From the NCBI GenBank assembly GCA_030144725.1, contig JASKMD010000006.1, forward strand, positions 3,882,302-3,946,301: 64,000 nt of DNA. The letters run 5' to 3'. Shown here piece by piece: positions 2,930 to 57,293 of the stretch (its first letter is position 1; the number at the start of each line of letters is the position of its first letter). The translations under genes were made by a program, and so were the position numbers. The notes below the pieces were generated by a model. It was not told the DNA's origin and searched no databases. It worked only from the letters and a program-made list of their open reading frames with translations. Source of the stretch: Haematococcus lacustris (taxonomy: Eukaryota > Chlorophyta > Chlorophyceae > Chlamydomonadales > Haematococcaceae).

Positions 2930-3401
2930 GCAGCCATGAACGAGGCGAGACAGAAGGCATCGACCTACCCAGCACCACGCTACGCAAGGCTCTAGAAGAC
3001 CTGAGCCTCTCAGCCAGGGACACCAACACGACCACCCGCCCGGACATCATCATGATCAACAACACGAAGAAAAGGAAGCAGGGATCGAACGAGTCAACCA
3101 AACACGTCACCCTGCTGGAAATCAAGTACTGTGCTGACTCGAGATGGGCCGAACAGCTAGACAACGCTACCACACAACACGCTGCCATGGCAGAAGCCAT
3201 CATAGCAGCAGGACACACAGTCACAATTAGACCCATTCTTCTGGGAATAGGCGGCATCGCACACAGGCAAATTAGTGCGGATATTCGTCATCCTAGGGGG
3301 GTAGTTTTTTGATGCGGTTCGCCTCGGATTGTCCTTGCGACTCCAACGCCACTTGACGCTTGTTGAAATTCTGAGTATGTGAGCAGTTGGAGTGTAGGTA
3401 C

Positions 3402-3450
3402 CTACAGTACTGTAGATGTCTACAGTACTGTAGAGTCTACAGTACTGTAG
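3402..3450. repeat. Three copies of the CTACAGTACTGTAG palindrome
   Basis: This is a short leading group of the 14-base perfect palindrome, spaced by 1-4 bases, about 140 bases inside the left end of element A. It is the outermost instance of the subterminal repeat. Confidence 0.85.
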
Positions 3451-4198
3451 GTCAGATTTGACAAGGTCTCTTGTAAATAGGGTACCATGCTGTTCTCCAC
3501 ATTCAAACCACCATTAGCTACCGCGATTGCACCGTCAGCTTCTGCGTGCTATAAATAGTGAGAGGCGTCGAAGCGTAGGCCCGCAAGCTCGATATGGATA
3601 TTTGTGCCGAAAGTTGTGTCCACGCAATAAGGTCGCCATAGGGAGCTACATACATACGTGTAAGGTCTAAGGCCGGGGCCCGTCTCTATCGCAAGCGGGT
3701 CCGTTCTGTCGGTTGTACTGGGTAGCTCGGCTTGCAAGCTCCCGCAAAGCTGTGGATGTTGATGATGCCCCGCAATCACAACAACCTCCTGCACCGCACC
3801 CTCCCGTGTAATATCGAGTGCGGCAGAGATTGCCCCAAAAGTTGTTTGCGGTTGGCCCTCAACCATCCATCATTACATCTAACCTCACATCATTACATCA
3901 TGACTCTTAGCCTACATCATTACATCAAGCTGCCACTTGTGTTCCTGCCAATCACCGAATGCATGGTATGGGCAAGGGCTCTGGCTCTTGCAAGGGCTGG
4001 TCTCAGGGTCGATACCGAATCCTAGAGGCTGAGTAAGGCTGGGCAGGGCTGGGCTGGGATTGGCAACATAGGCACGTTGTGTTGTCAGCGCATTTGCACA
4101 ACACTGTCGGGATAGCAAACGAGCTTGGGCTACATTGAGTTGTTCCTGCATGGGGGTGAAGGGGGCATGGGGGTTAAGGATGCATGGGGGGAAGGAAG
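3451..4198. other. Left interior of element A, no gene seen
   Basis: Mixed-composition sequence without a convincing ORF. It contains short CATTACATC repeats near 3870-3920. I see no transposase motif. Confidence 0.5.
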
Positions 4199-4931
4199 CT
4201 ACAGTACTGTAGACATTTACAGTACTGTAGATATCTACAGTACTGTAGACATAAACAGTACTGTAGACATTTACAGTACTGTAGACATTAAAAGTACTGT
4301 AAACATTTACAGTACTGTAGATATTTACAGTACTGTAGATATCTACAGTACTGTAGACATTTACAGTACTGTAGACATCTACAGTACTGTAGACATTTAC
4401 AGTACTGTAGACATTTACAGTACTGTAGATATCTACAGTACTGTAGACATTTACAGTACTGTAGACATTTACAGTACTGTAGACATTTACAGTACTGTAG
4501 ATATTTACAGTACTGTAGACATCTACAGTACTGTAGATATTTACAGTACTGTAGATATTTACAGTACTGTAGATATTTACAGTACTGTAGACATTTACAG
4601 TACTGTAGACATTTACAGTACTGTAGATACTTACAGTACTGTAGACATTTACAGTACTGTAGATATTTACAGTACTGTAAATGTCTACAGTACTGTAGAC
4701 ATTTACAGTATTGTAGATATTTACAGTACTGTAGATATCTACAGTACTGTAGACATTTACAGTAATGTAGACATTTACAGTACTGTAGACATTTACAGTA
4801 CTGTAGATATTTACAGTACTGTAGACATTTACAAGAAGACATTTACAGTACTGTAGACATTTACAGTGCTGTAGACATCTACAGTACTGTAGATATTTAC
4901 AGTACTGTAGATATTTAAGTCTGTAGATATT
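4199..4931. repeat. 18-bp palindromic satellite, left array of element A
   Basis: About 40 tandem units of 18 bases: the perfect palindrome CTACAGTACTGTAG plus a 4-base spacer (ACAT or ATAT). The unit is its own reverse complement except for the spacer, so both strands carry the same signal and could form hairpins or cruciforms. Because 18 is a multiple of three, long spurious ORFs appear on both strands (YSTVDI and QYCKCL repeats). They are not genes. Confidence 0.95.
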
Positions 4932-5050
4932 TACAGTAGGGGGGCAGCATCAGCAGTAGGGGGGCAACAGAAGCAGCAGTAGGGGGGCAGCAGCAGCAGC
5001 AGCAGCAGGGGCGCAGCAGCAACAGCAGGGGCGCAGCAGCAGATATAGTA
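4932..5050 (+). repeat. GGGGGGCAGCAG-type repeats
   Basis: Irregular units of a G run followed by CAGCAG, immediately after the palindrome array. This is low-complexity DNA. Confidence 0.75.
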
Positions 5051-6160
5051 GGGGCACTGTAGCACCTACCTACCTTTTGGCTGCTTGATGGCTGCTGCTG
5101 GGAAGGGGGTGGGAGTGGAAGAGCGAAGGCGGGGAGGGGGGGTAGATGTGGAAGGCGGGAGGATCAGAGGGGGGCAGCATCAGCAGGCTGGAGCAGGGCG
5201 GGGGCGGGGGCGGGGGCGGGGGCGGGGGCGGGGGAGGATGAATTGGGAGGGGGTGGTTGTGTAGGGGAAAGGGAAGTGGATGGGAGGTGCTTATTAGACC
5301 TGCAACCAAGGGGCGTGCACATGATGTAGGGTGACCAGGCTGGGGACTGTGTTAGCTATCACCGCGGCCTTACCTTTGTGGTCCTCCTGGCCTCCTACCT
5401 GCTCACACCAGGCAACATATCCCATGCGCCAGTGGGGTGGGACTGCGGTGGGGAGTGTAGGGTGTAGGGAAGGGAAGGTGGGGTGAGGTGGGGGTTGCGA
5501 TGCCACGTCAATCGAAGGGTGGGAGAGGGGAAGAGGAGGCTTGACAAGTATGGGAGGGGAGAGGGAGGGAGAGGGGGAAGGGAGGGGGTGGTGGTGGTGG
5601 GAAGAGGGTGGGTGGGGTGGGCTTTCTCCTGGCTGCTGTCAGGGGAGAGGTGACGGGGAGGGGGGAAGTGGGGGGTGGGTAGAGGTGGAAGTGGAGGGAC
5701 GACAAGCTGGGCGTTGGTGGTGGGCGTGGGAAAGGGGAGGAAGAGGGGATGGGGAAGGGTGTGACGATCAATCCTGCAGCGGGACAAGGGGCATGCTAGC
5801 GCTTAAGGTGGGTACAGGGTGCCACATACCTGCACTCACCTTTTGCTGGGGTGTGGTGTATATGTGTGTGGGAGGAAGGGGAGGAAGGGGAGGGAAGGGA
5901 AGGGGAGGTCCATGGGGAGGGCGAGAGAAGTGGGGAGGGCATTGATAGTCTTAGGTGTAGGCGCACAAGACCTGCGGCAACGGTGTGACGATTTGTCAAC
6001 GGAAGCAAACATTGGACATGGGTACTGGATGCACTCACCAATAGAGTAGGGAGATGTAGAGCTGGCAGATGGAGGGGCAGGTGTAGCAGCCCTCCATTAC
6101 AACTCACCTTCCTTTGTCCTCACCTCAGTAGGAAGTGCAGGGTGGGAGAGTAGGGTTGGG
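5051..6160 (+). repeat. G-rich low-complexity interior of element A
   Basis: A strongly G-skewed stretch that includes a (GGGGGC)n run at about 5188-5233 (guanine-quadruplex-prone) and GGGGA/GGGAAG runs at 5530-5920. The proline-rich reading frames on the minus strand follow from base composition. Several minus-strand splice-like signals occur (CTTACC at 5368, CTCACC at 5831 and 6105, and CTGCA after GAC at 5299), so captured exon pieces cannot be excluded. No product can be named. Confidence 0.6.
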
Positions 6161-6657
6161 TTAGGCTGGGCTGGGCTGGGCTGGGCTGGGCTGGGCTGGG
6201 CTGGGCTGGGCTGGGCTGGGTGGGCTGGGCTGGGCTGGGCTGGGCTGGGCTGGGCTGGGCTGGGCTGGGCTGGGCTGGGCTGGGCTGGGCTGGGCTGGGC
6301 TGGGCTGGGCTGGGCTGGGCTGGGCTGGGCTGGGCTGGGCTGGGCTGGGCTGGGCTGGGCTGGGCTGGGCTGGGCTGGGCTGGGCTGGGCTGGGCTGGGC
6401 TGGGCTGGGCTGGGCTGGGCTGGGCTGGGCTGGGCTGGGCTGGGCTGGGCTGGGCTGGGCTGGGCTGGGCTGGGCTGGGCTGGGCTGGGCTGGGCTGGGC
6501 TGGGCTGGGCTGGGCTGGGCTGGGCTGGGCTGGGCTGGGCTGGGCTGGGCTGGGCTGGGCTGGGCTGGGCTGGGCTGGGCTGGGCTGGGCTGGGCTGGGC
6601 TGGGCTGGGCTGGGCTGGGCTGGGCTGGGCTGGGCTGGGCTGGGCTGGGCTGGGTGG
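6161..6657 (+). repeat. (GGGCT)n pentanucleotide satellite, first array
   Basis: Nearly perfect GGGCT repeats over about 495 bases (roughly 98 units), with one 4-base irregularity near 6220. The GWAGL-repeat ORF here is an artefact of the repeat. The same satellite occurs inside element C at 27824-28119. Confidence 0.97.
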
Positions 6658-6884
6658 TAATCAGGGGGGTACTAGTCGTGATTGTAAGACCTGCAGCAAC
6701 CAGGTGTGGTAGCGGTTAGGCTGGATACTAAGGGCTATGTTGCGTAATGCTAGCTCCTTCTAAGCTCTTACCTTGGTCCTAAGCTCTTACCATGGTCCTT
6801 CTGGCCTCTTGGCTGCTCACAACACGTTGCACCTGCCTTGCGTTGGTGCATCAATGCTTGCGATTCATTGCGGAGAATCGTTGC

Positions 6885-6970
6885 GAGGAAACTGGCCGCG
6901 AGGCTAGCTGCGATGCTGGCTGCGAGGCTGGCTGCGAGGAGAATGGCTGCGAGGCTGGCTGCGAGGTGAG
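6885..6970 (+). repeat. GGCTGCGAGGCT minisatellite
   Basis: Short direct repeats of GCTGCGAGG within the right half of element A, about six partial copies. No gene is supported here. Confidence 0.7.
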
Positions 6971-7204
6971 ATCCTCGCACCGAGCTGCCTCACAGGTATG
7001 CTTCTGCGCTGCTGGACCAGCTGTGTGGCCGCGAGGTTGATTGCCGAGTATGTGGCTGCGAGTATGGGCTAGATGTGGCTGCGAGTATGGGTAACCTCGT
7101 GCGATGCCATCGCTGCAATACCGGCTACACGATGCTGCGACTAAGTGTTGGACGGATGCCTTGAATGCAAGTGAGATGTTCAGAATTTTTCTAAGTGCTT
7201 AAAG

Positions 7205-7765
7205 GCTACAGTACTGTAAGTGGTCTCTCGAGGTACCTCGAGGTACCTCGAGGTACTGTAGATGTCTACAGTACTGTAGATGTCTACAGTACTGTAGATG
7301 TCTACAGTACTGTAGATGTCCACAGTACTGTAGGTACCTACAGTACTGTAAATGATCTCTCGAGGTACCTCGAGGTACCTCGAGGTACTGTAGATGTCTA
7401 CAGTACTGTAGATGTCTACAGTACTGTAGGTGTCTACAGTAATGTAGATGTCTACAGTACTGTAGATGTCCACAGTACTTTAGGTACCTACAGTACTGTA
7501 AATGGTCTCTCGAGGTACCTCGAGGTACCTCGAGGTACTGTAGATGTCTACAGTACTGTAGATGTCTACAGTACTGTAGGTGTCTACAGTACTGTAGATG
7601 TCTACAGTACTGTAGATGTCCACAGTACTTTAGGTACCTACAGTACTGTAAATGGTCTCTCGAGGTACCTCGAGGTACCTCGAGGTACTGTAGACATCTA
7701 CAGTACTGTGGACATCTACAGATGTCGAGGTACCCCGACAGTACTGTAGACACCTACAGTACTGT
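7205..7765. repeat. Higher-order palindromic satellite, right array of element A
   Basis: The same CTACAGTACTGTAG palindrome as the left array, here mixed with a second palindromic motif, CTCGAGGTACCTCGAG, in a higher-order unit. CTCGAG blocks start at 7227, 7359, 7509 and 7659: spacings of 132, 150 and 150 bases. The short unit lacks exactly one 18-base repeat. This is the subterminal repeat of the right end of element A. Confidence 0.92.
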
Positions 7766-8065
7766 AGCATGGCCGTATCTCACCAACCGCGCAAAATCAC
7801 GAATTTTAGTTTCAACCCCCAATCTTACAATGCCTTCATTTGACTATGTACCAAGTCCGAGGCTCTGAATCTCAAAAATGCTGTTACTAATTTGCCTGAG
7901 TGCGCTTACAACACACATACCAAGCTACACATGGAAGCCATAGGCATCACGCAAACCAACACCACTAAACTGCTAAATAAACTGACTAGACATGCGGTCA
8001 TAAGCTCACATAGCATAGCCAGAACCAGCTACAGACTCAGGGCAGGCGTCAAGGATGGGGGTTGA

Positions 8066-11613: not shown

Positions 11614-11753
11614 CTGGGGGCAGAGGGGTGCTGGTGAAGCTGGGGGGAAGCTGGGGCATGCTGGATGCAAGGGTGTGGGGGGCGACGCCAGGGTGTGGGG
11701 GGAGGGTGCAGATCTTCACCAGCTCGCACCATTTGCCTTTGCCAGGCATTTGC

Positions 11754-18021: not shown

Positions 18022-18023
18022 CC

Positions 18024-18110
18024 CATCTTCACCATCATTACCACCATCATCATCATCACTATCACTTTTGTGACTATTATCATCACCATCATCACCATCA
18101 TCATCACCAC
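18024..18110 (+). repeat. (CAT)n microsatellite
   Basis: Irregular CATCAT/CACCAT triplets just downstream of the NIPA stop codon, in the presumed 3' untranslated region. Confidence 0.85.
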
Positions 18111-25247: not shown

Positions 25248-26530
25248 GGTGGTCCTTTACACCCTCATGCACACCTTGGGAGCCTCGGACGGGATGGTTG
25301 ATTGGGCTCGGATCCTCCTTCACAACACCTAGGCTGTTACCCACGTCAACGGCACAGACTCACCCCTTTTCACCTGGTCCGCGGGCGTCCGACAAGGCTG
25401 CCCCCTCTCACCCCTCCTTTACCTCTTTGTGGCTCAAGGGTTCGCCTCCTGGCTCATCTCCCACCCACAGCTAGGCGTGCGGATCGGAGGCTCTCGGCTC
25501 GTCTGCACTTTCTTCGCTGACGATACCCAGATTCACCAAGGCGACCTCACAGACCCTGCCCTCTCCACCCTCTCCCTTGCTCTCACTACCTTTGGAGACG
25601 CTTCGGGGCAACGGGTAAACACAGACAAATCCTTTGCTGTCCTCATTGGCGTCCCCCTCCCCTCTCCCCCCACCCATCTGGCTGGCATCCCTGTCCATCA
25701 CTCCGCCACTTCCCTTGGCATCCAACAGGCCAACCCTACCCTCTCTTCCCCCACCCCTCGCCACACCAGAGCCACCCGAGCCTCTCTTAGACCTCCAAAC
25801 ACCCTCTCCCCTCACCCCGACCCAGCTACCTCCTCAGCCTGGGAGGAGCGCCTGAGGCAAGCCACCAAACACCTCCACCGTCTCAACGGCCTCCCCCTCT
25901 CTACCATGGGCAAGGGCATCGCCTCCTCCACCTATGCCCTTAGCACCTTCCTCTACCACGCCGAATTCTCGGGCCTACCACCTACTCTCCCTACCTTCAC
26001 CCATACCCTCTACCACCTTGTGGTCAAGAACCTCCCTTACCCCCTTGCCATAGGCCGTCCTGCTGACGGAGGTTTTGGCCTCCTACCTCTAAGAGAACAT
26101 ATCCAGGCTCGGCACGCCGCCATGGCTACACGGCTTCTACACCACCTCATCAATGACCACGCCTACTCCACCCTTCCCTCCCCGTCCCCCCCACCAGCCA
26201 ATCCCACCCTTCACCCCCCACCCTTTACCCGCCCTACACCTACCCGCCCCTTCCTCACTTTTATCCGTTCCTTCCTCTCCAATCTCTACCACACCCTTCA
26301 CTCCCTCTTCTCCCGTTTTTTCACCCCCCTTCTCTCCTCCAGCCTACCACCTAGCCCCTCCCGAGACAGCCCCTCCCACCCTACCCAGCCTTCTCATACC
26401 AACCCCAACACCCTCCCCCCTTCACCAACCCCCCCAACCCCCTCTCAATCATCCCCTTCATGGATCCCCCTAGCAGCCACCCTCCTCACCCACGCCTGTC
26501 CCTCTCTCCACCCTGCTCATACCCTCCTTC
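25248..26530 (+). pseudogene. LINE reverse transcriptase, first half
   Basis: The frame reads through VVLYTLMHTLGAS, an in-frame TAG at 25330-25332, then VNGTDSPLFTWSAGVRQGC and PLSPLLY (RT block with GxxQGxPLSP) and FADD at 25513-25524, the catalytic di-Asp box seen as YADD/FADD in L1-type RTs. It continues with GLPLSTMGKGIAS and GGFGLLPLREHI. The fingers part upstream is missing (5' truncation). The frame ends only because element C starts at 26531. Confidence 0.85.
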
Positions 26531-26689
26531 CACTCACGATAAACAAGGACCGGTCGCGATTGGACCGACCATAGCTCATTGGAAAGAGGAGTAGAAGGCC
26601 GTTCGAACGGTACAAGTCTTATGTAACTCCGTGCATCCGTTGCGACGTAATTTGGCCGCGATTTTCTTAACCAAGCAATCTGCACAGAT

Positions 26690-27030
26690 GTCGTATGTCC
26701 TTAGTCTGCACAGCTTTTGCTTGTCGACATCTGCACAGCTGCAGGCGATGTCGACATCTGTGCAGCTGCGGGAAGTCGACATCTGCACAGATGTTGTATA
26801 CCGCGACCAACATCTGTGCAGCTGCTGACGACGACATCTGCACAGATGTTGACTTTTACATCTGAGCCTTGGCTGTGCAGATGTTGACACCGACATCTGC
26901 ACAGATGTCGACTATTACATTCGAGCCTTGGCTGTGCAGATGTTGTCTATAGCATCTGCACAGATGTCGACTTTTACATTCGCGGCTTGGCTGTGCAGAT
27001 GTCGTGGCTTCATCTGCACAGATGTCGACT
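26690..27030. repeat. CATCTGCACAGATG subterminal repeats, left
   Basis: About 14 copies, in both orientations, of the near-palindrome CATCTGCACAGATG, often extended to GACATCTGCACAGATGTCGA, separated by 10-20 bases of variable sequence. Confidence 0.92.
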
Positions 27031-27044
27031 ATTTCATCGACTCT

Positions 27045-27375
27045 TACATCCGCAAAACACATGTATTGACACCCAAACATCCCGCAACATCCCCGCAAAA
27101 CACATGTATTGACCACCAAACACCCCGCAACACCTTGCTACACCCCCGCAAAACACATGTATTGACGACCAAACACCCCGCAACACCTCGCTACACCCCC
27201 GCAAAACACATGCATTGACACCCAAACATCCCGCAACATCCCCGCAAAACACATGCATTGACACCCAAACATCCCGCAACATCCCCGCAAAACACATGCA
27301 TTGACACCCAAACATCCCGCAACATCCCCGCAAAACACATGCATTGACACCCAAACATCCCGCAACACCTCACTA
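27045..27375 (+). repeat. 43/53-bp tandem repeat CCGCAAAACACATG
   Basis: Tandem units of 43 bases (core CATTGACACCCAAACATCCC) and longer 53-base variants with GACCACCAAACACC. Related but diverged units occur in element D at about 46000-46160 and 46965-47110. Confidence 0.9.
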
Positions 27376-27600
27376 CGGGACTTGCAAGCACATGTCTCGA
27401 TGCACCATCACTCCACAACACCTCAATATGGATATGCTAAGCACATGCATTGATGCACCCAATGACCGCAACACCCCCCTACGATGTGACAAGGTAGCAA
27501 CGACACAACACAACAACAAGGTGACACCACACACCACCATCACCATCACCATCACCATCACCACACTCAGGTTGAACATGCATCACCATCACCATCACCA

Positions 27601-27823
27601 TCATCCACACCACCACACCACACCACACCACACCACACCACACCACACCACACCACACCACACCACACCACACCACACCACACCACACCACACCACACCA
27701 CACCACACCACACCACACCACACCACACCACACCACACCACACCACACCACACCACACCACACCACACCACACCACACCACACCACACCACACCGCACCG
27801 CACCGCACCGCACCGCACCGCAC
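27601..27823 (+). repeat. (CCACA)n then (CCGCA)n pentanucleotide array
   Basis: CCACA units to about 27790 switch to CCGCA for about six units and then meet the GGGCT array. All three share a 5-base period. Confidence 0.95.
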
Positions 27824-28119
27824 CTGGGCTGGGCTGGGCTGGGCTGGGCTGGGCTGGGCTGGGCTGGGCTGGGCTGGGCTGGGCTGGGCTGGGCTGGGCT
27901 GGGCTGGGCTGGGCTGGGCTGGGCTGGGCTGGGCTGGGCTGGGCTGGGCTGGGCTGGGCTGGGCTGGGCTGGGCTGGGCTGGGCTGGGCTGGGCTGGGCT
28001 GGGCTGGGCTGGGCTGGGCTGGGCTGGGCTGGGCTGGGCTGGGCTGGGCTGGGCTGGGCTGGGCTGGGCTGGGCTGGGCTGGGCTGGGCTGGGCTGGGCT
28101 GGGCTGGGCTGGGCTGGGT
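27824..28119 (+). repeat. (GGGCT)n pentanucleotide satellite, second array
   Basis: About 59 nearly perfect GGGCT units, the same satellite as at 6161-6657. Confidence 0.97.
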
Positions 28120-28749
28120 GTAGGGGAAGGGGAGGTTGGGACCATTGAACCTGCAACAATTCAGATGTTGGCAAATAGTCTGGCAAGGTACTTGGAGCCA
28201 CATGACTGCAAGATAAAATACTCACCATTCGCTAGGGTGGGGTTTGTGTGGGTGCACCCAACTTTGTTTCACGTGCACCCAGCTTCGTCGCATGCATGGC
28301 TCCTGACCGCCTCCGGGCTCCTCCACTCCTCTTCCGCTCCGTCTCACAGGCTTCGGGCTACGTGTCCTAGTTGCACCTCATGCATTTGCCGCATCTTTGC
28401 ATCGCTGTGTCGCTGCATCGCTGCACCTCCTTCCGTTTTCTGTCGCTATATCTTGATCCTATCGCTTAACCTGATGGCATCTGGTCGCCTAAGCGGCTGG
28501 CTGGCTCGTAGCTAGCCTTTTGGCGACGATTTTTGTTGGCTGCTCCTGGCTGCTCATTGCTGCTATGTGGGGAAATCTAGGCTCCTTCGCGGTTCCTTGG
28601 CTTCCTTCGCGCCACCTTTGCGAAAACTTCATGCAGATATCACACAGATTGTTGAAGAATGGAAGAGTCTTGATTCCTTCGCGGTGACTTTGCTTTCTTC
28701 GCGGTGCCTTTGCGTAACCTTTATGCAAGCCTTTTCTTCATGTGCACAG
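28120..28749 (+). other. Interior of element C, no gene seen
   Basis: Mixed sequence with CCTTCGCGG repeats near 28585-28710. No ORF with recognisable content. Confidence 0.5.
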
Positions 28750-29270
28750 CTGCACTACTTGGCATCTGTGCAGATGTCCAGGTATTCATCTGTGCAGATG
28801 TCGACATTGTCGGCATCTGCACAGATGTCGTCCTTAAATTATAACCGGCATCTGCACAGATGTCGCCCTTATATGCATCTGCACAGATTTAATTACCGAC
28901 ATCTGCACAGATGTCGCCTTTATTAGCATCTGCACAGATGTCGTCCTTAAATTATAACCGACATCTGCACAGATGTCGCCTTTTTATGCATCTGCACAGA
29001 TTTAATAACCGGCATCTGCACAGATGTTGCCTTTATTAGCATCTGCACAGATGTCGTCCTTAAATTATAACCGGCATCTGCACAGATGTCGCCTTTTTAT
29101 GCATCTGCACAGATTTAATTACCGACACCTGCACAGATGTCGCCTTTATTAGCATCTGCACAGATTTAATAACCGGCATCTGCACAGATGTCGCTTTTCC
29201 TAAAGGCATCGACATGCAGCTGCACAGATGACATGCTCATTTAACCGACATCTGCACAGATTCCCAAAAA
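28750..29270. repeat. CATCTGCACAGATG subterminal repeats, right
   Basis: About 18 copies of the same near-palindrome as the left side, here in 35-60-base higher-order units with TCCTTAAATTATAACCG and TTTAATTACCGAC spacers. Confidence 0.92.
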
Positions 29271-29438
29271 GGGGGGGGTACCTCGCGCGCGGATCGATGT
29301 ATCTTCGCAACCGCTGCGAGTTAGGACTTCATTCAAGAGCGAGGTCCCCCTTAAACTCAACGCTCTATCGCTCTATCGGAGCAGAAAGTCCATCCGATGC
29401 AAAAAAGGCCCCCGCGTCGGCCTTATTTATCGTGAGTG

Positions 29439-45425: not shown

Positions 45426-45654
45426 CCTTGTGGACCCCCCAGAGCCCCACCCCCAGCCTTGCCCCAGTTCCAGCACCAGCCACTGAATGATGACGGTGAT
45501 GCACTCCGGGTAATTAAGGCCGAGACGGCAGTTTCCGTTGAGGTATACCGCGGATAGCCCATCGCAAGGGCGACCCATCGCCGTCAATAACTCCGTCTAA
45601 CTCGAAGTGGTTGAGCTGTAATCGCGGTTTCAATAAGTTGCGTAAATATTCTCC

Positions 45655-45998
45655 GCAGGGTCAGTGTGACCCTCCGCAGGGTCAGGCCTGACCCTGCGGA
45701 GGGTCACCGCTAGGCTCGCTTCCTAGGCATTTCTGACCCTGCGGAGGGTCACCGCCAGCTCATTTTCTAGGCAATTCTGACCCTGCGGAGGGTCACCGCT
45801 GGCTCATTTCCTAGGCATTTCTGACCCTGCGGAGGGTCACAACCGGCTAATTTCCCTGGCATTTCTGACCCTGCGGAGGGTCACCGCCAGCTCATTTTCT
45901 AGGCATTTCTGACCCTGCGGAGGGTCACCGCTGGCTCACTTCCTAGGCATTTCTGACCCTGCGGAGGGTCACCGTCGGCTCACTTCCTTGGCATTACT
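45655..45998. repeat. 44-bp repeat with GACCCTGCGGAGGGTC, left subterminal array of D
   Basis: Near-palindromes start at 45690, 45735, 45779, 45823, 45867, 45911 and 45955, a 44-base period. Two reverse-oriented copies lie just before. Spacer: ACCGCTGGCTCATTTCCTAG. It looks CRISPR-like at a glance but is not (see rejected list). Confidence 0.95.
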
Positions 45999-46164
45999 TG
46001 CACATGTCTCAACGTTAACACAACTCGCAACACCTCGCTTAGGCACTACCAAACATACGTCTCCACGCTCAAACACTTCACAACAACTTGCAAAGATACA
46101 GCGAAGTACATGTCACCACGTTGAAACACCTTGTACAACCTCGACACACCTCCGCAAAACACAT

Positions 46165-46957
46165 CACACACGCAATTTAGTGCACAACTATCGATTTTGA
46201 GGGGGTGTTTTTTGTACACGGTTCGCCTCGGAATGAGACTATTGGCCCATGCCCACCAACATCGTGAAAAATCTCGTAGTAATCAGCGAAATTCGTGAAT
46301 TAAATATTTAATATTTAGTTACCCTTTTTCAACTACTCCTTATAGTTACTCCTTATAGTGTAGTACTGCACCGTATCTAATGCCGCAACAATGCACCAAA
46401 CCTCATCGTGAAAAACAGCACCATATACGGTCTAGTAGTTTTGTGATGTAATAAAGTAGTTATGTTGGTGATTCTTTGGTATTTTACTGGTTTGGAGATT
46501 GTTGTTCCTATAAATCACATTGGTTCTCATGGTGTAGTACTGCACCTGTCACTAGTGCACTACTACAATGCACCCAATTGTGCTACACTGCACCACACCG
46601 AGTGGTACAACACATCACCTTAGCGATATCTCACCAACCCATGCATACTGTAGTGATACGCCTTGTTGGTGATACGCTGATTTGGTGAAAACCCAAATAT
46701 CATGCTCAAAGAGAAGGTGATACAATTTGGTGACGAAAAACATCTCATGCTCAACGAATTTTCACTCAAAATCCATGCTCAAACAATAGGTGATACAATT
46801 TGGTGACAAATTGATTTGGTGAAATCACCAACAGGGCGTATCACTACGGTATTTATGAATTTTCGTTCAAACTTCAATCTTACAACCACGTCATATGGCT
46901 ATGTGCAAAATCTCAAGCCGCGATTCTGAAAAAAGCTGTTACTAATTTGCCTGAGTG
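46165..46957. mobile_element. TIR transposon B inside D (2-bp TSD AT), short relative of A
   Basis: The left end CACACACGCAATTTAGTGC and right end ACTAATTTGCCTGAGTG (ends 46957) match the ends of A. AT flanks both sides. B shares with A the inner left block (GTTTTTTG then CGGTTCGCCTCGGA at 46206-46233; compare 3303-3328) and about 105 bases before the right end. At 793 bases it lacks A's satellites. The interior is AT-rich with GGTGATAC and TTTGGTGA repeats. Confidence 0.85.
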
Positions 46958-47250
46958 ATGTCTCGACATCCAAACACCCCGCAACACCTCACTACGCTAC
47001 TCCTTAGCACATGGCTCGATGCACCATCACCCCGCGGCACCTCCCTACAGAATTAATTAGTGCCAAGCAAATGCATTCATGCACTAACGCCTTGCAACAC
47101 CTTCACATAAGGTGACAACACCACACCAACAATAACACCACCACCACCACACCACTACACCACCATGGGCATGGCATGACTAGAGTAGGCTGGCTGCTAC
47201 TACTTGCGTGCGCTCCATGCTGCCCGCAAAGGCTGGCCTTTAGGGAGGGG

Positions 47251-47512
47251 TGTTAGTTGCATACCCTCCCGGTGCAGTTGAGATCAAGCACCGGGATTGT
47301 AGGGTGTGCCTGCCAGCGGCCCGGCCGCGATGAGTGCGAGTGTGACTGCCGTATTTAGGGCAGACACCTGGCAGTCGTAGGCACCCTGAATTGGTGTCCG
47401 CGTCTGCCCGTGCTCTTCCAACAGGTAGGCGCAAGGTTGCGCGCTAGCAGTTGTGGCAGATCAATGTAACTACCCTGAACTGGTGTCCGCGTCTGCCCGT
47501 GCTCTTCCAACA
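47251..47512 (+). repeat. 5' LTR of the copia element, with a duplicated 3' edge
   Basis: Starts TGTTAGTTGCATACC. A first copy of the LTR end CTCTTCCAACA falls at 47423, as in the 173-base 3' LTR. Then 47 new bases and a second copy of the last 42 LTR bases end at 47512, next to the primer-binding site. Confidence 0.85.
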
Positions 47513-47525
47513 GGTTATGGGCCCA
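47513..47525 (+). other. Primer-binding site, GGTTATGGGCCCA
   Basis: The bases directly after the LTR match the half-tRNA (initiator Met, internal) primer site known from Drosophila copia. This is from memory and should be checked against the host tRNA-iMet. Confidence 0.7.
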
Positions 47526-47599
47526 CGCGCTGACGCGTGATAGGACTCCAGTAAGTTGCTGGCTAGGGTTCGTGTGGTTGACAGCCGAGTCGACCAGCG

Positions 47600-48684
47600 A
47601 TGGCAACTAATCCTCCTCTCTCTGGCAATCAAGCCACCATTCTCGATGATGACAACTGGCCGATCTGGAGCATTCGTACCGAAGGCCTGCTAATCGAAGC
47701 AGGCCTCTGGTCCGTCGTCGCCGACGGCGTCACCCCCTTACCCACTGCGCCACCAGCCAACGCCACTCAGCAGGAGCAGGCTGCCTATGCTGCCGAGCTA
47801 ACCCGCTCTCGCGCAGAAGAAGCCCTGGATCGGAAAGCCAAAGCCTTCATTCAGCGGCACGTCTCCAATCTCCACATCTTTACTGTCAAGAACGCGGACT
47901 CAGCAGAGGACGCCTGGCAAACCCTTCAGTCTCAGTTCACCCAATCGTCAGTAGCGCGACAGTCGCAGCTGCAGCAGCAACTCAGCCTCCTGCGCATGGA
48001 ACCCAGCGAGTCAGTAGCGCGCTTCTATGCGCGTTTGCAGCAGCTGCTAACAGAGCTTGAAGCATGCAGCTGCGAAACCTCTGAGTCCACAGTGGTGCTG
48101 GCCATTCTGGCAGCCCTGCCGCCTGAGTATGAGGGCACTATCGAGAGACTGCGCTATGATCAGACCAGCGCAGACCTGGCTGTTGAGCGCATCAAGCGTG
48201 TGCTGCTGCAGAAAGAGGCAGACCTACTCAGCAAGCAGATGCAGCAGCAGCTCAGCACCTCCTCATCCACACTCTGGTCGTACTCCTCCCCCTCTGAGCA
48301 CAGGGCGGCTGGGAGCTCTAGCGGCCAGGGGGGCAGGGGCAGAAGCGGGGCCCCTCAGCAGCCTCGTGAGCAGCAGACCAGGGCACAGTCTCCTGACAGG
48401 TCCACCAGGGATGCTAGCTCACATGCTCACCTGACCTGCAACTACTGTGCCAAGCCAGGTCACATTATGTCTGAGTGCTTCACCTTTGACAGGGATCAGC
48501 ACAACCGCATGAAGACCCTGTTCAGCAACCCTGCCAGACCCAGCAGCCCTGGCAGAAGGCCCAGCCCAAGCAGAAGCTCCAGCCCAGCCAGGCCATCCAG
48601 CCCCAGCAGAGGCAGGACCCAAACTCCTGGCAGGGCAGCAGCTCAGAGCCCAAGCAGGGGTGCCTCCCTGTTCACTGCCACTGC

Positions 48685-48726
<42 letters not shown>

Positions 48727-51370
48727 CTTTGATGATGTCCTCATGCAGATGGTGCAGCCCAGACTGAACTTCAACAGCGACTTGTACAGCCCCTTTCTCA
48801 TTGACTTAGGTGCATCCCAGCATATCCTGAAGGACCTGCAGTTCTTCTATGACTACACAGCCTTTGCGCCTGACAAGCACAGGCCAGTGAAGCTGGCAGC
48901 TGCAGGCCACAGGGTCTGGGCAGTCGGAGCTGGCAGTGTGTTTCTCAGCACCAAGCGAGGCTCCTGGTTCCTCAGCCATGCCCTGTATGTGCCTGACAGC
49001 AAGGAGAACTTCATCTCAGTGGCAGCAGCAACAGCAGAGGGCGGCAGCTTTCTATTCCGTGGAGATCTGTGCCAGATCAGCAGCAACCAGTTTGGCAGCA
49101 TGCTCAGAGTCAATGCTCACAAGATCAGGAACTCCTACATCCTGGCAGCTGTTCCCATGCCTGATGGCCCAGACACTGACTCTGAGCAGGAGCAGGGTGC
49201 TAAGCTGTACCACGTCCGTCAATCTGAGCTGCAGCCAGACAACAGGGTGCAGCTGGAGCCTCTGACCAACGTGCCTGCACCTACTGCCAACAGCGCCACC
49301 TCCGCCTCTCCTCAGGTGTGGCACCAGCGCCTGTGTCATGCCTCCTATGCTGCTCTCTCCCGCATGCAGTCAGAAGGCATGGTGTCAGGTGTCCCTGTAT
49401 CAGCATCACAGTTTCGAGCAGCTGCTGCTGATCCAGCTGTGTGTGAATGCTGTGTCAAAGGCAAGCAGCACAAGAATGTCGCCTTTGCAGACCCACCTCC
49501 CAACGCAGCTCCAGTGACAGCCCCCTTAGGACTGATCCACATGGATGTCTGTGGGCCCATGCAAACCAGGGCCAGAGATGGCAGCCTGTATGTAGCCACC
49601 TTCCTTGACGAGTTCACCAAGCTGTCTGTGTGTGTGCCCATCAGCAGCAAGTCGCAGGTGCCAGACACAGTCAAGGCTGTGATAGAACAGCTAGAGACAC
49701 AGTCTGGCTTCCGCTGCAAAGCAATCCGCACAGATAACGGCACTGAGTATGTTAACAGCCGTATGACAGACTACTGCAGCAGCAAGGGTATCCTACACCA
49801 ACACTCAGCACCATACAGCCCCCAGCAGAATGGTGCAGCAGAGCGCCTAAACAGAACTGTCTTTGAGAAGGCGCGCAGCATCATTCATGCTGCTGGCATC
49901 CCCCTCATCTTCTGGGCTCATGCAGTCAAGTTTGCCAATCATGTCAGATGCCTGCTGCCTGTCTCAGGTCAGCCCCTCACACCCTGGGAAGCCTTCTATG
50001 GTGTCAAGCCTGACTTGTCAGGCCTCAGAGTGTTTGGATGCAAAGTATGGCTCCATGTGCCTGATCAGAAACGCAGCAAGCTAGATCCCAAGTCTGTTGA
50101 AGGCTTGTTTCTAGGGTACCAGCCTGGCTCAAAAGCCTACCTGGCCCTGGTAGACGGCAGAGAGACCTGTAGCAAGGACATTGTGTTTGATGAGCTGTCA
50201 GTCCTGCCGCCTACCCGCCAGCAGAACCAGAAACCTGCCCTGACCAGCCAGCAGCCTGCTCTGACCAGCCAGTTCCTGCGTGACATTTTGTTACCCCTCC
50301 CACCCAACACAGTTACCCTCTTTGAGTCAGCAGCCCCTGCTGAGGGGGGCAATAGTCTGCAACAGACCAACAGCAGTGGCTCTGACGACAGTGGGAGCAG
50401 CAGCAGCAGCAGCAGCAGACCAGACAGCAGTGCACAGCAACCACAATCCAGACCCTTGGACAGAATTGAGGCACAACAAGACAGCAGCAGACCTGACTCT
50501 CCACTCAGCGAGCCAGAGCAGGGAGCAGAAGAGCCAGAGCAAATCAGCCTCACCGCCAGAGATGAGCCAGGTTCCCACATGTGGCAGCAACAGCAACTAG
50601 AGCTCATCAGCAGACTACCTAGACCTGGAATAGGCAGGTTCAGCCTTCGACCCATGCCTCTAGCCAGGGAAGCAGTGGGAGCACAACCAGTCGCATCAGC
50701 TGCCGCACCAGCAGCAGCAAGACCAGCAGCATCAGCTGCAGCACCAACAGCAGCAAGACCAGCAGCATCAGCTGCAGCACCAGCAGCAGCAAGACCAGCA
50801 GCACCAGCTGCAGCACCAACAGCAGCAAGACCAGCAGCACCAGCTGCAGCACCAGCAGCAGTCAGACCGTCAGCATCAGCTGCAGCACCAACGGCAGCAA
50901 GACCGGCAGCACCAGTAACAGCAACTGCTAGACCAGCAGCAGCAGCCAGACCAGGCTTGGCACAGCCTGCGCTCCGTGTTCCCCTGATCCCAACATCAGC
51001 AGCAAGACAGGCAGCACCAGCAGTGCACCCCTCTATGCCAATGCCTCCTGCACCTGACCCACGGCCTGCCTCACCTGAAGCACCTGCTGCACCCGTGCCA
51101 CGGCGCAACCCATCCAGAGAGAGGCACCTGCCTGAGAGGTTCAGGGACTCTGACTTGTTTGCCATGAATGTGTCAGACTCTCCTGTCAATGACACACCCA
51201 CTGTGGCAGAGGCCCTGGCCGGTCTCGCGCAGAAGAAGCCCTGGATCGGAAAGCCAAAGCCTTCATTCAGCGGCACGTCTCCAATCTCCACATCTTTACT
51301 GTCAAGAACGCGGACTCAGCTGAGGACGCCTGGCAAACCCTTCAGTCTCAGTTCACCCAATCGTCAGTAG
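47600..51370 (+). CDS. Copia gag-protease-integrase, first copy (lesioned)
   Basis: 1256 residues. Gag: NWPIWSIRTEGLLIEAGLW and a long helical domain; zinc knuckle CNYCAKPGHIMSEC (about 48440-48480); poly-Asp run; protease LIDLGASQHI, where the catalytic Asp-Ser-Gly reads Asp-Leu-Gly; HHCC with CECC in place of CEGC; integrase D-D-E with HMDVCGPM, RTDNGTEYV and NGAAERLNRT, intact. A Pro/Ala-rich linker follows. At 51223 the duplication junction shifts the frame, so RT is replaced by an unrelated tail. The start ATG at 47600 lies 75 bases after the primer site and is the natural gag start. Confidence 0.9.
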
Positions 51371-52100
51371 CGCGACAGTCGCAGCTGCAGCAGCAACTCA
51401 GCCTCCTGCGCATGGAACCCAGCGAGTCAGTAGCGCGCTTCTATGCGCGTTTGCAGCAGCTGCTAACAGAGCTTGAAGCATGCAGCTGCGAAACCTCTGA
51501 GTCCACAGTGGTGCTGGCCATTCTGGCAGCCCTGCCGCCTGAGTATGAGGGCACTGTCGAGAGACTGCGCTATGATCAGACCAGCGCAGACCTGGCTGTT
51601 GAGCGCATCAAGCGTGTGCTGCTGCAGAAAGAGGCAGACCTACTCAGCAAGCAGATGCAGCAGCAGCTCAGCACCTCCTCATCCACACTCTGGTCGTACT
51701 CCTCCCCCTCTGAGCACAGGGCGGCTGGGAGCTCTAGCGGCCAGGGGGGCAGGGGCAGAAGCGGGGCCCCTCAGCAGCCTCGTGAGCAGCAGACCAGGGC
51801 ACAGTCTCCTGACAGGTCCACCAGGGATGCTAGCTCACATGCTCACCTGACCTGCAACTACTGTGCCAAGCCAGGTCACATTATGTCTGAGTGCTTCACC
51901 TTTGACAGGGATCAGCGCAACCGCATGAAGACCCTGTTCAGCAACCCTGCCAGACCCAGCAGCCCTGGCAGAAGGCCCAGCCCAAGCAGAAGCTCCAGCC
52001 CAGCCAGGCCATCCAGCCCCAGCAGAGGCAGGACCCAAACTCCTGGCAGGGCAGCAGCTCAGAGCCCAAGCAGGGGTGCCTCCCTGTTCACTGCCACTGC

Positions 52101-52136
<36 letters not shown>

Positions 52137-53803
52137 CTTTGATGATGTCCTCATGCAGATGGTGCAGCCCAGACTGAACTTCAACAGCGACTTGTACAGC
52201 CCCTTTCTCATTGACTCAGGTGCATCCCAGCATATCCTGAAGGACCTGCAGTTCTTCTATGACTACACAGCCTTTGCGCCTGACAAGCACAGGCCAGTGA
52301 AGCTGGCAGCTGCAGGCCACAGGGTCTGGGCAGTCGGAGCTGGCAGTGTGTTTCTCAGCACCAAGCGAGGCTCCTGGTTCCTCAGCCATGCCCTGTATGT
52401 GCCTGACAGCAAGGAGAACTTCATCTCAGTGGCAGCAGCAACAGCAGAGGGCAGCAGCTTTCTATTCCGTGGAGATCTGTGCCAGATCAGCAGCAACCAG
52501 TTTGGCAGCATGCTCAGAGTCAATGCTCACAAGATCAGGAACTCCTACATCCTGGCAGCTGTTCCCATGCCTGATGGCCCAGACACTGACTCTGAGCAGG
52601 AGCAGGGTGCTAAGCTGTACCACGTCCGTCAATCTGAGCTGCAGCCAGACAACAGGGTGCAGCTGGAGCCTCTGACCAACGTGCCTGCACCTACTGCCAA
52701 CAGCGCCACCTCCGCCTCTCCTCAGGTGTGGCACCAGCGCCTGTGTCATGCCTCCTATGCTGCTCTCTCCCGCATGCAGTCAGAAGGCATGGTGTCAGGT
52801 GTCCCTGTATCAGCATCACAATTTCGAGCAGCTGCTGCTGATCCAGCTGTGTGTGAAGGCTGTGTCAAAGGCAAGCAGCACAAGAATGTCGCCTTTGCAG
52901 ACCCACCTCCCAACGCAGCTCCAGTGACAGCCCCCTTAGGACTGATCCACATGGATGTCTGTGGGCCCATGCAAACCAGGGCCAGAGATGGCAGCCTCTA
53001 TGTAGCCACCTTCCTTGACGAGTTCACCAAGCTGTCTGTGTGTGTGCCCATCAGCAGCAAGTCGCAGGTGCCAGACACAGTCAAGGCTGTGATAGAACAG
53101 CTAGAGACACAGTCTGGCTTCCGCTGCAAAGCAATCCGCATAGATAACGGCACTGAGTATGTTAACAGCCGTATGACAGACTACTGCAGCAGCAAGGGTA
53201 TCCTACACCAACACTCAGCACCATACAGCCCCCAGCAGAATGGTGCAGCAGAGCGCCTAAACAGAACTGTCTTTGAGAAGGCGCGCAGCATCATTCATGC
53301 TGCTGGCATCCCCCTCATCTTCTGGGCTCATGCAGTCAAGTTTGCCAATCATGTCAGATGCCTGCTGCCTGTCTCAGGTCAGCCCCTCACACCCTGGGAA
53401 GCCTTCTATGGTGTCAAGCCTGACTTGTCAGGCCTCAGAGTGTTTGGATGCAAAGTATGGCTCCATGTGCCTGATCAGAAACGCAGCAAGCTAGATCCCA
53501 AGTCTGTTGAAGGCTTGTTTCTAGGGTACCAGCCTGGCTCAAAAGCCTACCTGGCCCTGGTAGACGGCAGAGAGACCTGCAGCAAGGACATTGTGTTTGA
53601 TGAGCTGTCAGTCCTGCAGCCTACCCGCCAGCAGAACCAGAAACCTGCCCTGACCAGCCAGCAGCCTGCTCTGACCAGCCAGTTCCTGCGTGACATTCTG
53701 TTACCCCTCCCACCCAACACAGTTACCCTCTTTGAGTCAGCAGCCCCTGCTGAGGGGGGCAATAGTCTGCAACAGACCAACAGCAGTGGCTCTGACGACA
53801 GTG

Positions 53804-53834
<31 letters not shown>

Positions 53835-54638
53835 ACCAGACAGCAGTGCACAGCAACCACAATCCAGACCCTTGGACAGAATTGAGGCACAACAAGACAG
53901 CAGCAGACCTGACTCTCCACTCAGCGAGCCAGAGCAGGGAGCAGAAGAGCCAGAGCAAATCAGCCTCACCGCCAGAGATGAGCCAGGTTCCCACATGTGG
54001 CAGCAACAGCAACTAGAGCTCATCAGCAGACTACCTAGACCTGGAATAGGCAGGTTCAGCCTTCGACCCATGCCTCTAGCCAGGGAAGCAGTGGGAGCAC
54101 AACCAGTCGCATCAGCTGCCGCACCAGCAGCAGCAAGACCAGCAGCATCAGCTGCAGCACCAACAGCAGCAAGACCAGCAGCATCAGCTGCAGCACCAGC
54201 AGCAGCAAGACCAGCAGCACCAGCTGCAGCACCAACAGCAGCAAGACCAGCAGCACCAGCTGCAGCACCAGCAGCAGTCAGACCGTCAGCATCAGCTGCA
54301 GCACCAACGGCAGCAAGACCGGCAGCACCAGTAACAGCAACTGCTAGACCAGCAGCAGCAGCCAGACCAGGCTTGGCACAGCCTGCGCTCCGTGTTCCCC
54401 TGATCCCAACATCAGCAGCAAGACAGGCAGCACCAGCAGTGCACCCCTCTATGCCCATGCCTCCTGCACCTGACCCACGGCCTGCCTCACCTGAAGCACC
54501 TGCTGCACCCGTGCCACGGCGCAACCCATCCAGAGAGAGGCACCTGCCTGAGAGGTTCAGGGACTCTGACTTGTTTGCCATGAATGTGTCAGACTCTCCT
54601 GTCAATGACACACCCACTGTGGCAGAGGCCCTGGCCGG
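47807..54638 (+). repeat. 3,416-bp tandem duplication inside the copia element
   Basis: 47807-51222 is repeated at 51223-54638 with only scattered single-base differences and copy-number changes in the GAT and AGC runs that cancel out (minus 6, plus 6). The junction at 51221-51223 joins GCCCTGGCCGG to TCTCGCGC with about two to three bases of possible microhomology. Confidence 0.93.
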
Positions 54639-56169
54639 TCCCATGGCAGACTTGTGGATCGAAGCTATGAATGCTGAGTTGGCCTCCCTGCATGCCAACC
54701 AAACATGGTGCCTTGAAGAGCGTCCTGCCAATGCACGTGTGTTGCCTACCAAATGGGTACTCAAAGTGAAGCGTGATGCTGCAGGGAACATTGAGAAGCT
54801 AAAGGCCAGGCTAGTGGCAAAGGGGTTCTATCAACAATCAGGTGTGGATGTAGGAGACGTCTATGCACCTGTCAGCAAGCATACCACATTGCGCACCCTT
54901 CTGGCCAAGGCAGCAGCTGAGGACATGGAGATTCATCAGTTAGACTTTGAGACAGCCTTCCTGAATGGCAAGCTAGAGCCAGGGGAGGTCATCTATGTGC
55001 AGCAGCCAGAGGGTTTTGAGGAAGGCAGCACTAACACTGTGTGCCGTCTGCAGAAGGCCCTGTATGGTTTGAGGCAGGCCCCTAGGGCGTGGCATGCCAG
55101 GCTGTGTGAGGAGCTGCTGAGCATGGGCTTCAAGGCCTCTGAGGCAGACCCTGCCCTGTTTACCCTGCAGCTGAGCACTGGCATGGTGTACCTGCTAGTG
55201 TATGTGGACGACTGCCTTCTGTGCACCCAGCAGGGGGACACCGCAGGCTTGGCCTACGTGAAGTAGCAGCTGTCCTCAGCCTTCAAACTGAAGGACTTGG
55301 GTGAGGCCCGGTGGTTCCTAGGGACGCAGCTGACCAGAGACAGGGCTGAGGGCACCATCAAGCTTGACCAGCACAAATTCATTCAGGAGCTGGTCACAGC
55401 CAACAGCAAGTCAGCAGCTCACAGCAAGCCTCTGCCCATGGCTCCTGCTGTTAAGCTAGTCAGGGAAGGGGATGCCTTGGACACGACTCTGCATCATTAC
55501 AGTGCCCTGGTGGGCAGCCTGCTTTACCTGACCTACTGCACAAGGCCAGACATTGCTTTTGCTGTGGGCGCCTTGGCCAGGCATATGTCGGCTCCCACCA
55601 AGCAGCACTGGGCGGCCGCATGCAGTGTGTTATGTTATCTAAAGGGCACTGCAGATCAAGGACTCCTGTTTGGTGGTGTGTCAGGGCTGCAGGGCTTCTC
55701 TGATGCAGACTACGCAGGGGACAAGGACACAGCCAGAAGCACCACAGGGTATATCTTCACTCTGAATGGGGGTGCCATTAGCTGGTCCAGCCGCCTCCAG
55801 CCGACTGTGGCTATGTCAACAGCAGAAGCAGAGTATATGGCAGCTTCCAGCGCAGCCAAGGAGGCTCTGTGGCTGCGCAAGCTCATGAGGGATTTGCAGC
55901 TGGATGCCAGCTGTGTGCACCTGGGCTGTGACAATTAGGCAGCCATTCAGCTTCTGCACAACCCTATGGCCACCTCACGAGCAAAGCATATTGACGTACA
56001 CCATCACTTTGTCAGAGAGCGCATCAGCAGGGGTGAGGTAGCATTTCACTACTGCCACACCTCCAGCATGCTGGCAGATATCCTCACCAAGCCCTTGGCA
56101 GCAGTCCAGTTTAACATGGGCAAGCAAGGATGTGGAGTGTTCAGCTGTACAGGCACAGGTCGTATCTGA
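51223..56169 (+). pseudogene. Copia gag-pol, second copy, with two TAG stops
   Basis: The frame re-enters gag at the junction without a start (first ATG 51412) and runs through zinc knuckle, protease with intact LIDSGASQHI, CEGC finger and integrase (RIDNGTEYV, Thr to Ile next to the catalytic Asp). RT follows: LPTKWVLKVKRDAAG, QLDFETAFLNG and the YVDD box at about 55201. TAG occurs at 55264. Then come the RT thumb and RNase H (DADYAGDKDTARSTTGY, STAEAEYMAASSAAKEALWL). TAG occurs again at 55936. The tail AAIQLLHNP, RAKHIDVHHHFVRE, ADILTKPL ends TGA at 56169. The complete enzyme set is thus present but not in one uninterrupted frame. Confidence 0.9.
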
Positions 56170-56408
56170 TCTGAAACAGCCTGTGGTATCCAGCCTGTAA
56201 TGTTCATCAGGACTGGAACATGGAAGAGTTCTAGGCACAGGCCTGCATGCCTGTTAACAGCCTGTTAGTCTCAGCATGGTGTGTTTTTGCCATGAACTGA
56301 GAGGTTGCCCGCAGTTGTTGCTTGGCTCAGGCTTGCATGCCTGCTGACCGCCAGTTGCTTGCTTAAACAGTTGTTGGAAGCGCTAAGTTGTTGCTCTCAC
56401 CTAGCCAG

Positions 56409-56423
56409 ACCTCTGAGTGGGAG
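56409..56423 (+). other. Polypurine tract of the copia element
   Basis: The purine-rich stretch CCTCTGAGTGGGAG ends directly before TGTTAG of the 3' LTR, the usual position of the plus-strand primer. Confidence 0.75.
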
Positions 56424-56596
56424 TGTTAGTTGCATACCCTCCCGGTGCAGTTGAGATCAAGCACCGGGATTGTAGGGTGTGCCTGCCAGCGGCCCGGCCG
56501 AGATGAGTGCGAGTGTGACTGCCGTATTTAGGGCAGACACCTGGCAGTCGTAGGCACCCTGAACTGGTGTCCGCGTCTGCCCGTGCTCTTCCAACA
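56424..56596 (+). repeat. 3' LTR of the copia element
   Basis: 173 bases, TGTTAG...CCAACA, nearly identical to 47251-47423 (few substitutions, e.g. GCCGAGATG against GCCGCGATG), which points to recent insertion. Confidence 0.92.
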
Positions 56597-56699
56597 AGGG
56601 GGGAAGTAGACGGGGTGGCGGACTGGGAGGTGGTGGTGGTGGTGGTGGTGGGACAGGAGAGGGAGGGAGGGTCAGGATTGCCTAGGTCGTGAGCCACAG

Positions 56700-56985
56700 T
56701 TGACCTTCCGCAGGGTCAGTGAGCCAACGGTGACCCTGCGGAGGGTCAGGAATGCCTAGGAAAGTGAGGCAACGGTGACCCTGCGGAGGGTCACAAAAAA
56801 CTGCGGAGGGTCACGTCTGACCCTCCGCAGGGTCAGGTCACCCGCCCTTGGGGCAAGAGGAGCACTTGACCCTGCGGAGGGTCACAAAACCCTGCGGAGG
56901 GTCACGCCTGACCCTGCGGAGGGTCAAGTCACCCCCACTTCGGCCAAGAGGGGTACTTGACCCTCCGCAGGGTCACCTACAAGGG
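56700..56985. repeat. GACCCTGCGGAGGGTC repeats, right subterminal array of D
   Basis: About ten copies in both orientations, with GTGAGCCAACGG and GGAATGCCTAGG spacers that resemble the reverse of the left spacers. They mirror the left array around the inserted elements. Confidence 0.92.
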
Positions 56986-57293
56986 GCCATAGCTCATCAC
57001 TGGCTGGGACTTTTTGCATGCCACCTACTAAGTTGGGCAGCTGTAACCATCCTTTACAATCGCTCATACTCACATTTCATGAAAGTTCACTTTGGTCACT
57101 CGGTGCCAACTCCCTTAGCCAAAATCAGGGTCACAGCCCCACACCTGGTCCAGCAACTCCCCAACGACTGAGAATTACACTTTGGCCCGAGAGAGTCTTG
57201 TACTCCCCTAGGTCACAGCAGCCTACATACCAAGTTTCAAACCTCAACTCTCAGGTTTTCCAAGCCAGCCAGGCCCTAATTTCCCGGAGTGTG

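Follow-up and report, generated by a model that had tools for sequence, protein, structure and literature searches.

Four CAC[A/T]C-ended transposons with two-base target duplications, three of them with family-specific palindrome arrays, in the green alga Haematococcus lacustris

The stretch of Haematococcus lacustris DNA analysed here (the window: 64,000 nucleotides, positions 3,882,302 to 3,946,301 of contig JASKMD010000006.1) contains four elements, A, B, C and D, with inverted CAC[A/T]C ends. A preliminary description of the window had proposed these four elements, and all eight of their ends were confirmed at the positions given in Table 1, reading CACACAGGCAAATTAGTG and CACTCAGGCAAATTAGTA for A (flanks CG/CG), CACACACGCAATTTAGTG and CACTCAGGCAAATTAGTA for B (AT/AT), CACTCACGATAAACAAGG and CACTCACGATAAATAAGG for C (TC/TC), and CACTCCGGGTAATTAAGG and CACTCCGGGAAATTAGGG for D (TG/TG). 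Its grouping of A with B and of C with D is also correct, although a loose consensus links all eight ends, for which reason the view that the two groups are unrelated was rejected. The boundaries that it gave for D hold but the full span between them is not one element: a single 11.8-kb D was rejected because B and a copia retrotransposon are nested inside it, and these insertions make up most of the length, leaving by arithmetic approximately 1.64 kb for D proper.

Table 1. Positions of elements A to D and of the features associated with them in the window.
Feature	Positions	Strand	Description
Element A	3260..7902	+	4,643 bp; non-autonomous; terminal inverted repeats (TIRs) CACWCAGGCAAATTAGT; duplication CG; interrupts a conserved protein frame
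Element B	46165..46957	+	793 bp; resembles a miniature inverted-repeat transposable element (MITE); duplication AT; nested in D
Element C	26531..29438	+	2,908 bp; non-autonomous; TIRs CACTCACGATAAAYAAGG; duplication TC; interrupts a long interspersed nuclear element (LINE) reverse-transcriptase frame
Element D	45502..57291	+	TIRs CACTCCGGGWAATTARGG; duplication TG; holds nested B and a copia element
A left palindromes TACAGTACTGTA	3402..4938	.	37 copies; first at +143 from end; main array ~4199-4938
A right palindromes TACAGTACTGTA	7206..7767	.	15 copies; last ends 136 bp from terminus
C left palindromes CATCTGCACAGATG	26677..27024	.	6 exact core copies; spacing mostly 55-59 bp
C right palindromes CATCTGCACAGATG	28763..29262	.	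16 exact core copies; spacing mostly 24-35 bp
D left palindromes TGACCCTGCGGAGGGTCA	45667..45971	.	8 copies; mostly 44-bp spacing; first core +166
D right palindromes TGACCCT(GCGG/CCGC)AGGGTCA	56731..56975	.	6 copies; last ~317 bp from terminus
LINE reverse-transcriptase frame before C	25333..26530	+	protein frame (Pfam RVT_1)
LINE frame after C	29441..30411	+	joining to the part before C (722 aa) requires removal of exactly 2 duplicated bases
Copia long terminal repeat (LTR) retrotransposon nested in D	47251..56596	+	own 5-bp duplication AGGGG

The pairing of the ends was compared with a chance model consisting of 60 order-2 Markov simulations, in which CACWC-type pairs were scored on 18 end bases. 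Five pairs in the window have at least 15 of 18 end bases identical, compared to a simulated mean of 1.2 and a maximum of 4; these five are the ends of A, C and D plus two pairs within a long inverted repeat at 31-36 kb. The ends of B, with 14/18 identical bases, are by themselves not above chance (at 13 or more identical bases there are 55 real pairs versus 36 expected). B is accepted because its right end is similar to the right end of A (77% identity over a 102-column alignment, E 2.7e-14) and because it has its own duplication and an empty site. The exact left 19-mer of B occurs once in the genome; loci L048 and L049 carry CACACACGCAAATTAGTGC, from which the left end of B differs at one base.

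Each of the four elements is flanked by an exact duplication of two bases, as the preliminary description had stated; none of the four duplications extends to a third base, and 3-bp duplications were therefore rejected for the window. The host sequences of A, B and C give further readings of this number. Excision of C together with exactly two duplicated bases produces one frame of 722 aa, and excision with 0, 1, 3 or 4 bases produces frames of 406-414 aa. The interrupted frame matches Pfam RVT_1, and a protein recorded for Haematococcus lacustris shares 98% identity with it across 34% of the query; in six aligned relatives, picked from 97 matches, the junction (HTLL on its left, LSTQAT on its right) is ungapped, as in QTLLLATLAS. 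Excision of A with two bases produces a frame of 174 aa, other numbers of bases giving 133-142 aa in their best frames, and the junction is ungapped in 5/5 protein matches, of which two are from Haematococcus lacustris; the other three carry the name of the bacterium Bosea, and we take them to be algal DNA in a bacterial record. B was inserted in a satellite inside D, and its flanks, joined with one AT removed, read ..CCGCAAAACACATGTCTCGACATCCAAACACCCCGCAAC..; intact satellite units in C, such as ..CCGCAAAACACATGTATTGACCACCAAACACCCCGCAAC.., resemble these rejoined flanks and show the empty site of B. A B-type left end has itself served as a target, for a 325-bp D-type MITE that duplicated TT, and in the window's B the corresponding site is uninterrupted. 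D itself yielded no empty site.

Genome scans covered the Haematococcus lacustris assembly (308 Mb, 597 contigs) and counted exact matches to the end patterns, with the same patterns reversed as the control. The A, C and D families are abundant in this genome: there are 1,213 exact A ends (597+616), 822 exact C ends (419+403) and 168 exact D ends (81+87), and the reversed control gave 0 in each case. Five D-type ends that all point the same way follow one another at intervals of exactly 4,503 bp on contig C26 (positions 67-18096) and probably mark a tandem array of the element.

For the genome-wide examination of flanks that the preliminary description had proposed, end pairs were chosen by facing orientation and distance from the 100 exact ends listed per pattern while their flanks were still unseen; exact ends alone were taken, so that copies with mutated or missing ends were left out, and ten C pairs were used out of approximately 27 facing pairs (by eye) among the listed ends. 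Genome pairs and the four window elements together make a tally of 46 insertion sites, after removal of two duplicated sites (L041/L042, with flanks identical to those of L011, and L049, the same insertion as L048). The duplication is 2 bp at 45/46 sites and 3 bp at 1/46. By family, it is 2 bp in 19/20 A pairs and 3 bp in the other (L023), 2 bp in all ten C pairs, and 2 bp in 8/8 D-type MITEs; the long A pairs of 11-19 kb, two of which by eye hold open reading frames (ORFs) resembling those of retrotransposons, have 2 bp in 6/6. A match of three bases was seen at 2/46 sites, L023 and L052, the second of which fits 2 bp as well. The insertion context tends towards C[NN]G and the duplication itself towards A/T; C stands immediately before it at 22/45 sites and G immediately after it at 21/45. 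Thus, L023 apart, duplications of another length did not appear, and the shared ends do not reach into the flanks except in two cases of local duplication. The elements could alternatively stem from segmental duplication or be inverted repeats formed by chance, and some copies did spread by duplication, L011 sharing flanks with L041/L042 and L048 sharing one insertion with L049; the other sites have different flanks, there are empty sites, and the duplication is 2 bp at 45/46 sites, so that transposition is favoured and this alternative, refuted for the sites tested, has practically no chance of being correct.

Inside both ends, A, C and D each hold arrays of one family-specific palindrome. 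The preliminary description mentioned that CACTA elements are known to carry subterminal repeats and did not report these arrays. Within the window, the A palindrome TACAGTACTGTA occurs 52 times, the C palindrome ATCTG(CA/TG)CAGAT 22 times and the D palindrome GACCCT(GCGG/CCGC)AGGGTC 14 times, in every case (52/52, 22/22 and 14/14) inside its own element. The distance between terminus and nearest palindrome in the window is 143 bp on the left and 136 bp on the right in A, 147 and approximately 177 bp in C, and 166 bp on the left in D; only the right end of D departs from the near-constant register. Among 20 copies of A from the genome, 19 have their first palindrome at 143 on the left and 19 have their last at 136 on the right, 904 of 1,157 successive palindrome spacings are exactly 18 bp, and the array size ranges from 14 to 226 copies. 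Across the genome, a palindrome is found at offsets 129-157 in 932 of the 1,213 A ends, and 99/100 of those listed are at exactly 143 or 136 (lengths read off the list); likewise, 319 C left ends have a palindrome at offsets 133-161, and 96/100 of those listed are at 146 or 147. Viral contigs that were searched for the A end, the A palindrome and the D palindrome gave 0 matches to each.

It is likely that A to D belong to the CACTA/EnSpm type (CMC group) of cut-and-paste transposons and are non-autonomous, being moved in trans, with the palindromes of A, C and D marking the ends. By structure, CACTA/EnSpm-like is the best filing for them. They have 5'-CAC..GTG-3' termini and short TIRs, and EnSpm termini are reported as CAC..GTG (PMC12730594). 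Their duplications fall within the 2-3 bp of the CACTA/EnSpm group, and subterminal repeats are present in both ends of A, C and D, though not in B or the 325-bp D-type MITE. The preliminary description had placed the elements in a CACTA-like superfamily branch with two-base duplications; the ends are indeed CACTA-like, but the 2-bp length is no departure, since CACTA elements are defined or listed with duplications of 2-3 bp (PMC4093653; PMC7764229), so that the two-base rule is solid but already within published definitions. Duplications of 2 bp were found in 7/14 copies of SmTRC1, an animal CACTA relative (PMC1636069), duplications of 2-5 bp with CA..TG ends are given for CMCT elements (PMC12730594), and 3 bp is given for plant CACTA elements (PMC8978399). 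A search of the literature, with most subscription journals outside its coverage, found no account of these Haematococcus families and nothing direct on 2-bp duplications in algal CACTA elements.

Several results weigh against this assignment or against the part given to the palindromes. The strict pentamer CACTA is absent from the element ends, which are CACTC or CACAC, and one site of the 46 has a 3-bp duplication. Pfam Transposase_21 (PF02992) has 0 matches in the host genome, a result for which the control is uninformative, 14 control genomes also giving 0; and ten of the 78 ORFs listed, all ten from two long A copies (18-19 kb, L041-L044), gave no match to a Pfam family. A palindrome is missing from the searched interval in 281 of 1,213 A ends, B is free of all three palindromes, and 8/8 copies of the 325-bp D-type MITE contain 0, although the ends and duplications of both are present. 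Thus, the palindrome array is not required in every mobile copy. No transposase was recognised in the window copies of A to D, in agreement with their earlier description as non-autonomous, nor did the analysis find an autonomous copy.

Transposase genes elsewhere in the genome bear on the lineage to which the elements may belong. The Plavaka branch is part of the same CMC group but another lineage than EnSpm, so that placing A to D in it would overlap with the assignment made above. The host genome has Plavaka-type transposase genes, with nine matches over the Pfam cut-off (one of 14 control genomes matched, below the cut-off) and a small family among them, and duplications of 2 or 3 bp are reported for Plavaka (PMC12730594). 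The ends reported there are TGT (TGT..ACA) or CATCA (CATCA..TGATG), not the CACAC or CACTC found here, and the sequences read at two of the Plavaka loci, 9.0 and 6.0 kb long, contain no A, C or D ends or palindromes; no link between these genes and the ends of A to D was found, and a Plavaka origin appears unlikely. Two of the genes, L077 and L078, have several exons. The L078 family occupies four places, with matches of 66-100% identity, plus three short matches; two Plavaka-type copies, when compared, were 98% identical across the whole stretch, so that the comparison did not delimit the element. By tblastn, the L077 exons matched the 77 analysed sequences only weakly (E 0.07 at best), and a protein-database search with one of them gave nothing at E 0.001. 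Movement of A to D by another superfamily such as KDZ, which is multicopy in this genome with 77 matches and whose Kyakuja members have CA..TG ends (PMC12730594), is very improbable: KDZ duplications are 7-8 bp (PMC12730594), compared to 2 bp here, and contigs C1, C2, C11 and C22 hold 13 KDZ matches, 11 of them within the stretch that both end lists cover, of which by eye 0/11 lie between facing A or C ends.

In the CACTA/EnSpm-type process that we favour, a transposase from an autonomous element would act in trans and cut at the CAC[A/T]C ends, and the cut ends would join target strands staggered by two bases, giving two-base duplications. Each palindrome might be occupied by a dimer, either of a TNPA-like DNA-binding protein that the element encodes or of the transposase itself, and the palindromes would mark the two ends as partners and restrict each family to its own machinery. 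The type of transposase, the palindrome-binding protein and the partner-marking role are predictions from sequence; on this basis the arrays are probably an address read by the moving machinery, made up of putative sites for a dimeric protein that helps the transposase. The palindromes could instead be passive, either tandem repeats expanded within the elements or sites for host factors, without a role in the choice of ends. The absence of palindromes from B and the 325-bp D-type MITE, the wide range of array sizes, from 14 to 226 copies, among the 20 A elements, and the expansion of simple repeats such as (GGGCT)n in A and C as well would agree with passivity, which is nevertheless quite unlikely given the constant distance from the end in 99/100 listed A ends, the use of one palindrome per end type in the end loci read, and the presence of the same palindrome at both ends of C and D within different surroundings. 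In D, the repeat units on the left have other spacers than those on the right, while TGACCCTGCGGAGGGTCA, which exceeds the searched core by one base at either side, is invariant; in C, the units around the palindrome differ between left and right while the palindrome itself is constant. A is weaker evidence on this point because its two arrays share most of the unit.

The correspondence between end and palindrome was followed for 1.4 kb inside the end at the end loci that were read: A ends are accompanied only by the A palindrome, C ends only by the C palindrome and D ends only by the D palindrome; the palindrome of its own family is present in 7/8 A loci, 4/4 C loci and 3/4 D loci, L005 and L031 having none. 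Some long A copies (L013, L034, L037 and L038) additionally hold C palindromes, which we take to be nested C elements; listed C ends fall within the stretches of L013, L034 and L038. Behind the C terminus there are two forms of the palindrome, the first palindrome of C left ends being TA-centred in 158/319 and having other centres in 161/319. At L001, where the first base of a C-type right end is mutated, the array contains 20 TA forms versus 1 CA form. A comparison of C left ends over their terminal 135 bp does not set the two forms apart in this small sample (15 rows representing 14 distinct ends, since L055 and L056 hold one end; 3 with TA): identity is 0.91 within the TA form, 0.85 within the others and 0.89 between them, in an ungapped comparison that includes one row with an indel. 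Tentatively, and with somewhat less than even confidence, the palindrome may be regarded as a replaceable address, which keeps families with related CAC ends apart and can change across a whole array while the terminus stays the same. If so, homogenisation of arrays would enable families of transposons to change the site at which they are bound and to free themselves from one another's machinery. With hundreds of ends per family in one genome, a near-fixed palindrome distance and two versions behind one terminus, the change of a transposon's recognition site would become a directly testable question, and sequence alone suffices to count and annotate the Haematococcus element families. Elsewhere in the genome, an array of another palindrome, GGACCCTGTGCAGGGTCC, lies directly beside a C-type end (L053, positions 1531-1910) and suggests a further family.

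The plant CACTA/EnSpm elements (Spm/En and soybean Tgmt*) resemble those described here in their CAC ends, short TIRs, subterminal repeats in both ends and non-autonomous derivatives, and also in the variation of subterminal motifs from subfamily to subfamily within one genome; in soybean, such variation between CACTA subfamilies led to the proposal of a parallel diversity of TNPA-like binding proteins (PMC2613891). The Haematococcus elements differ from the plant elements by having CACTC or CACAC ends rather than CACTA, duplications of 2 bp rather than 3 bp, and a symmetric or nearly symmetric palindrome in up to 226 copies per element at a near-fixed register. SmTRC1 and other animal CACTA relatives share the 2-bp duplications, but their TIRs start with CCC and they encode Transposase_21, whereas here the ends are CAC and Transposase_21 was not found. 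What sets Haematococcus apart is the symmetric or nearly symmetric palindromic motif, the large arrays, the near-fixed register and the two versions behind one terminus.

Other repeats lie within the elements and elsewhere in the window. Long pentamer runs occur in A, (GGGCT)n at 6153-6654, and in C, (CACCA)n and (CTGGG)n at 27584-28118. The copia element in D contains a 3.4-kb internal tandem duplication (47803-51224 and 51219-54640, 99.2% identical). A run of 500 N at 11754-12253 is possibly an assembly gap. At 31173-36282, inverted arms of approximately 1.5 kb (85% identical) surround an ORF (33318-34061, minus strand) with a sub-threshold PHD-finger match, and at 38205-39787 there is an element with two inverted arms of approximately 540 bp (93%), ends TGTAGGGGATC and a 5-bp duplication CTTCA. 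Two inverted-repeat pairs (86-87% identical, 20-24 kb apart) at 36859-38053 and 58192-60994 are possibly parts of another repeat family.

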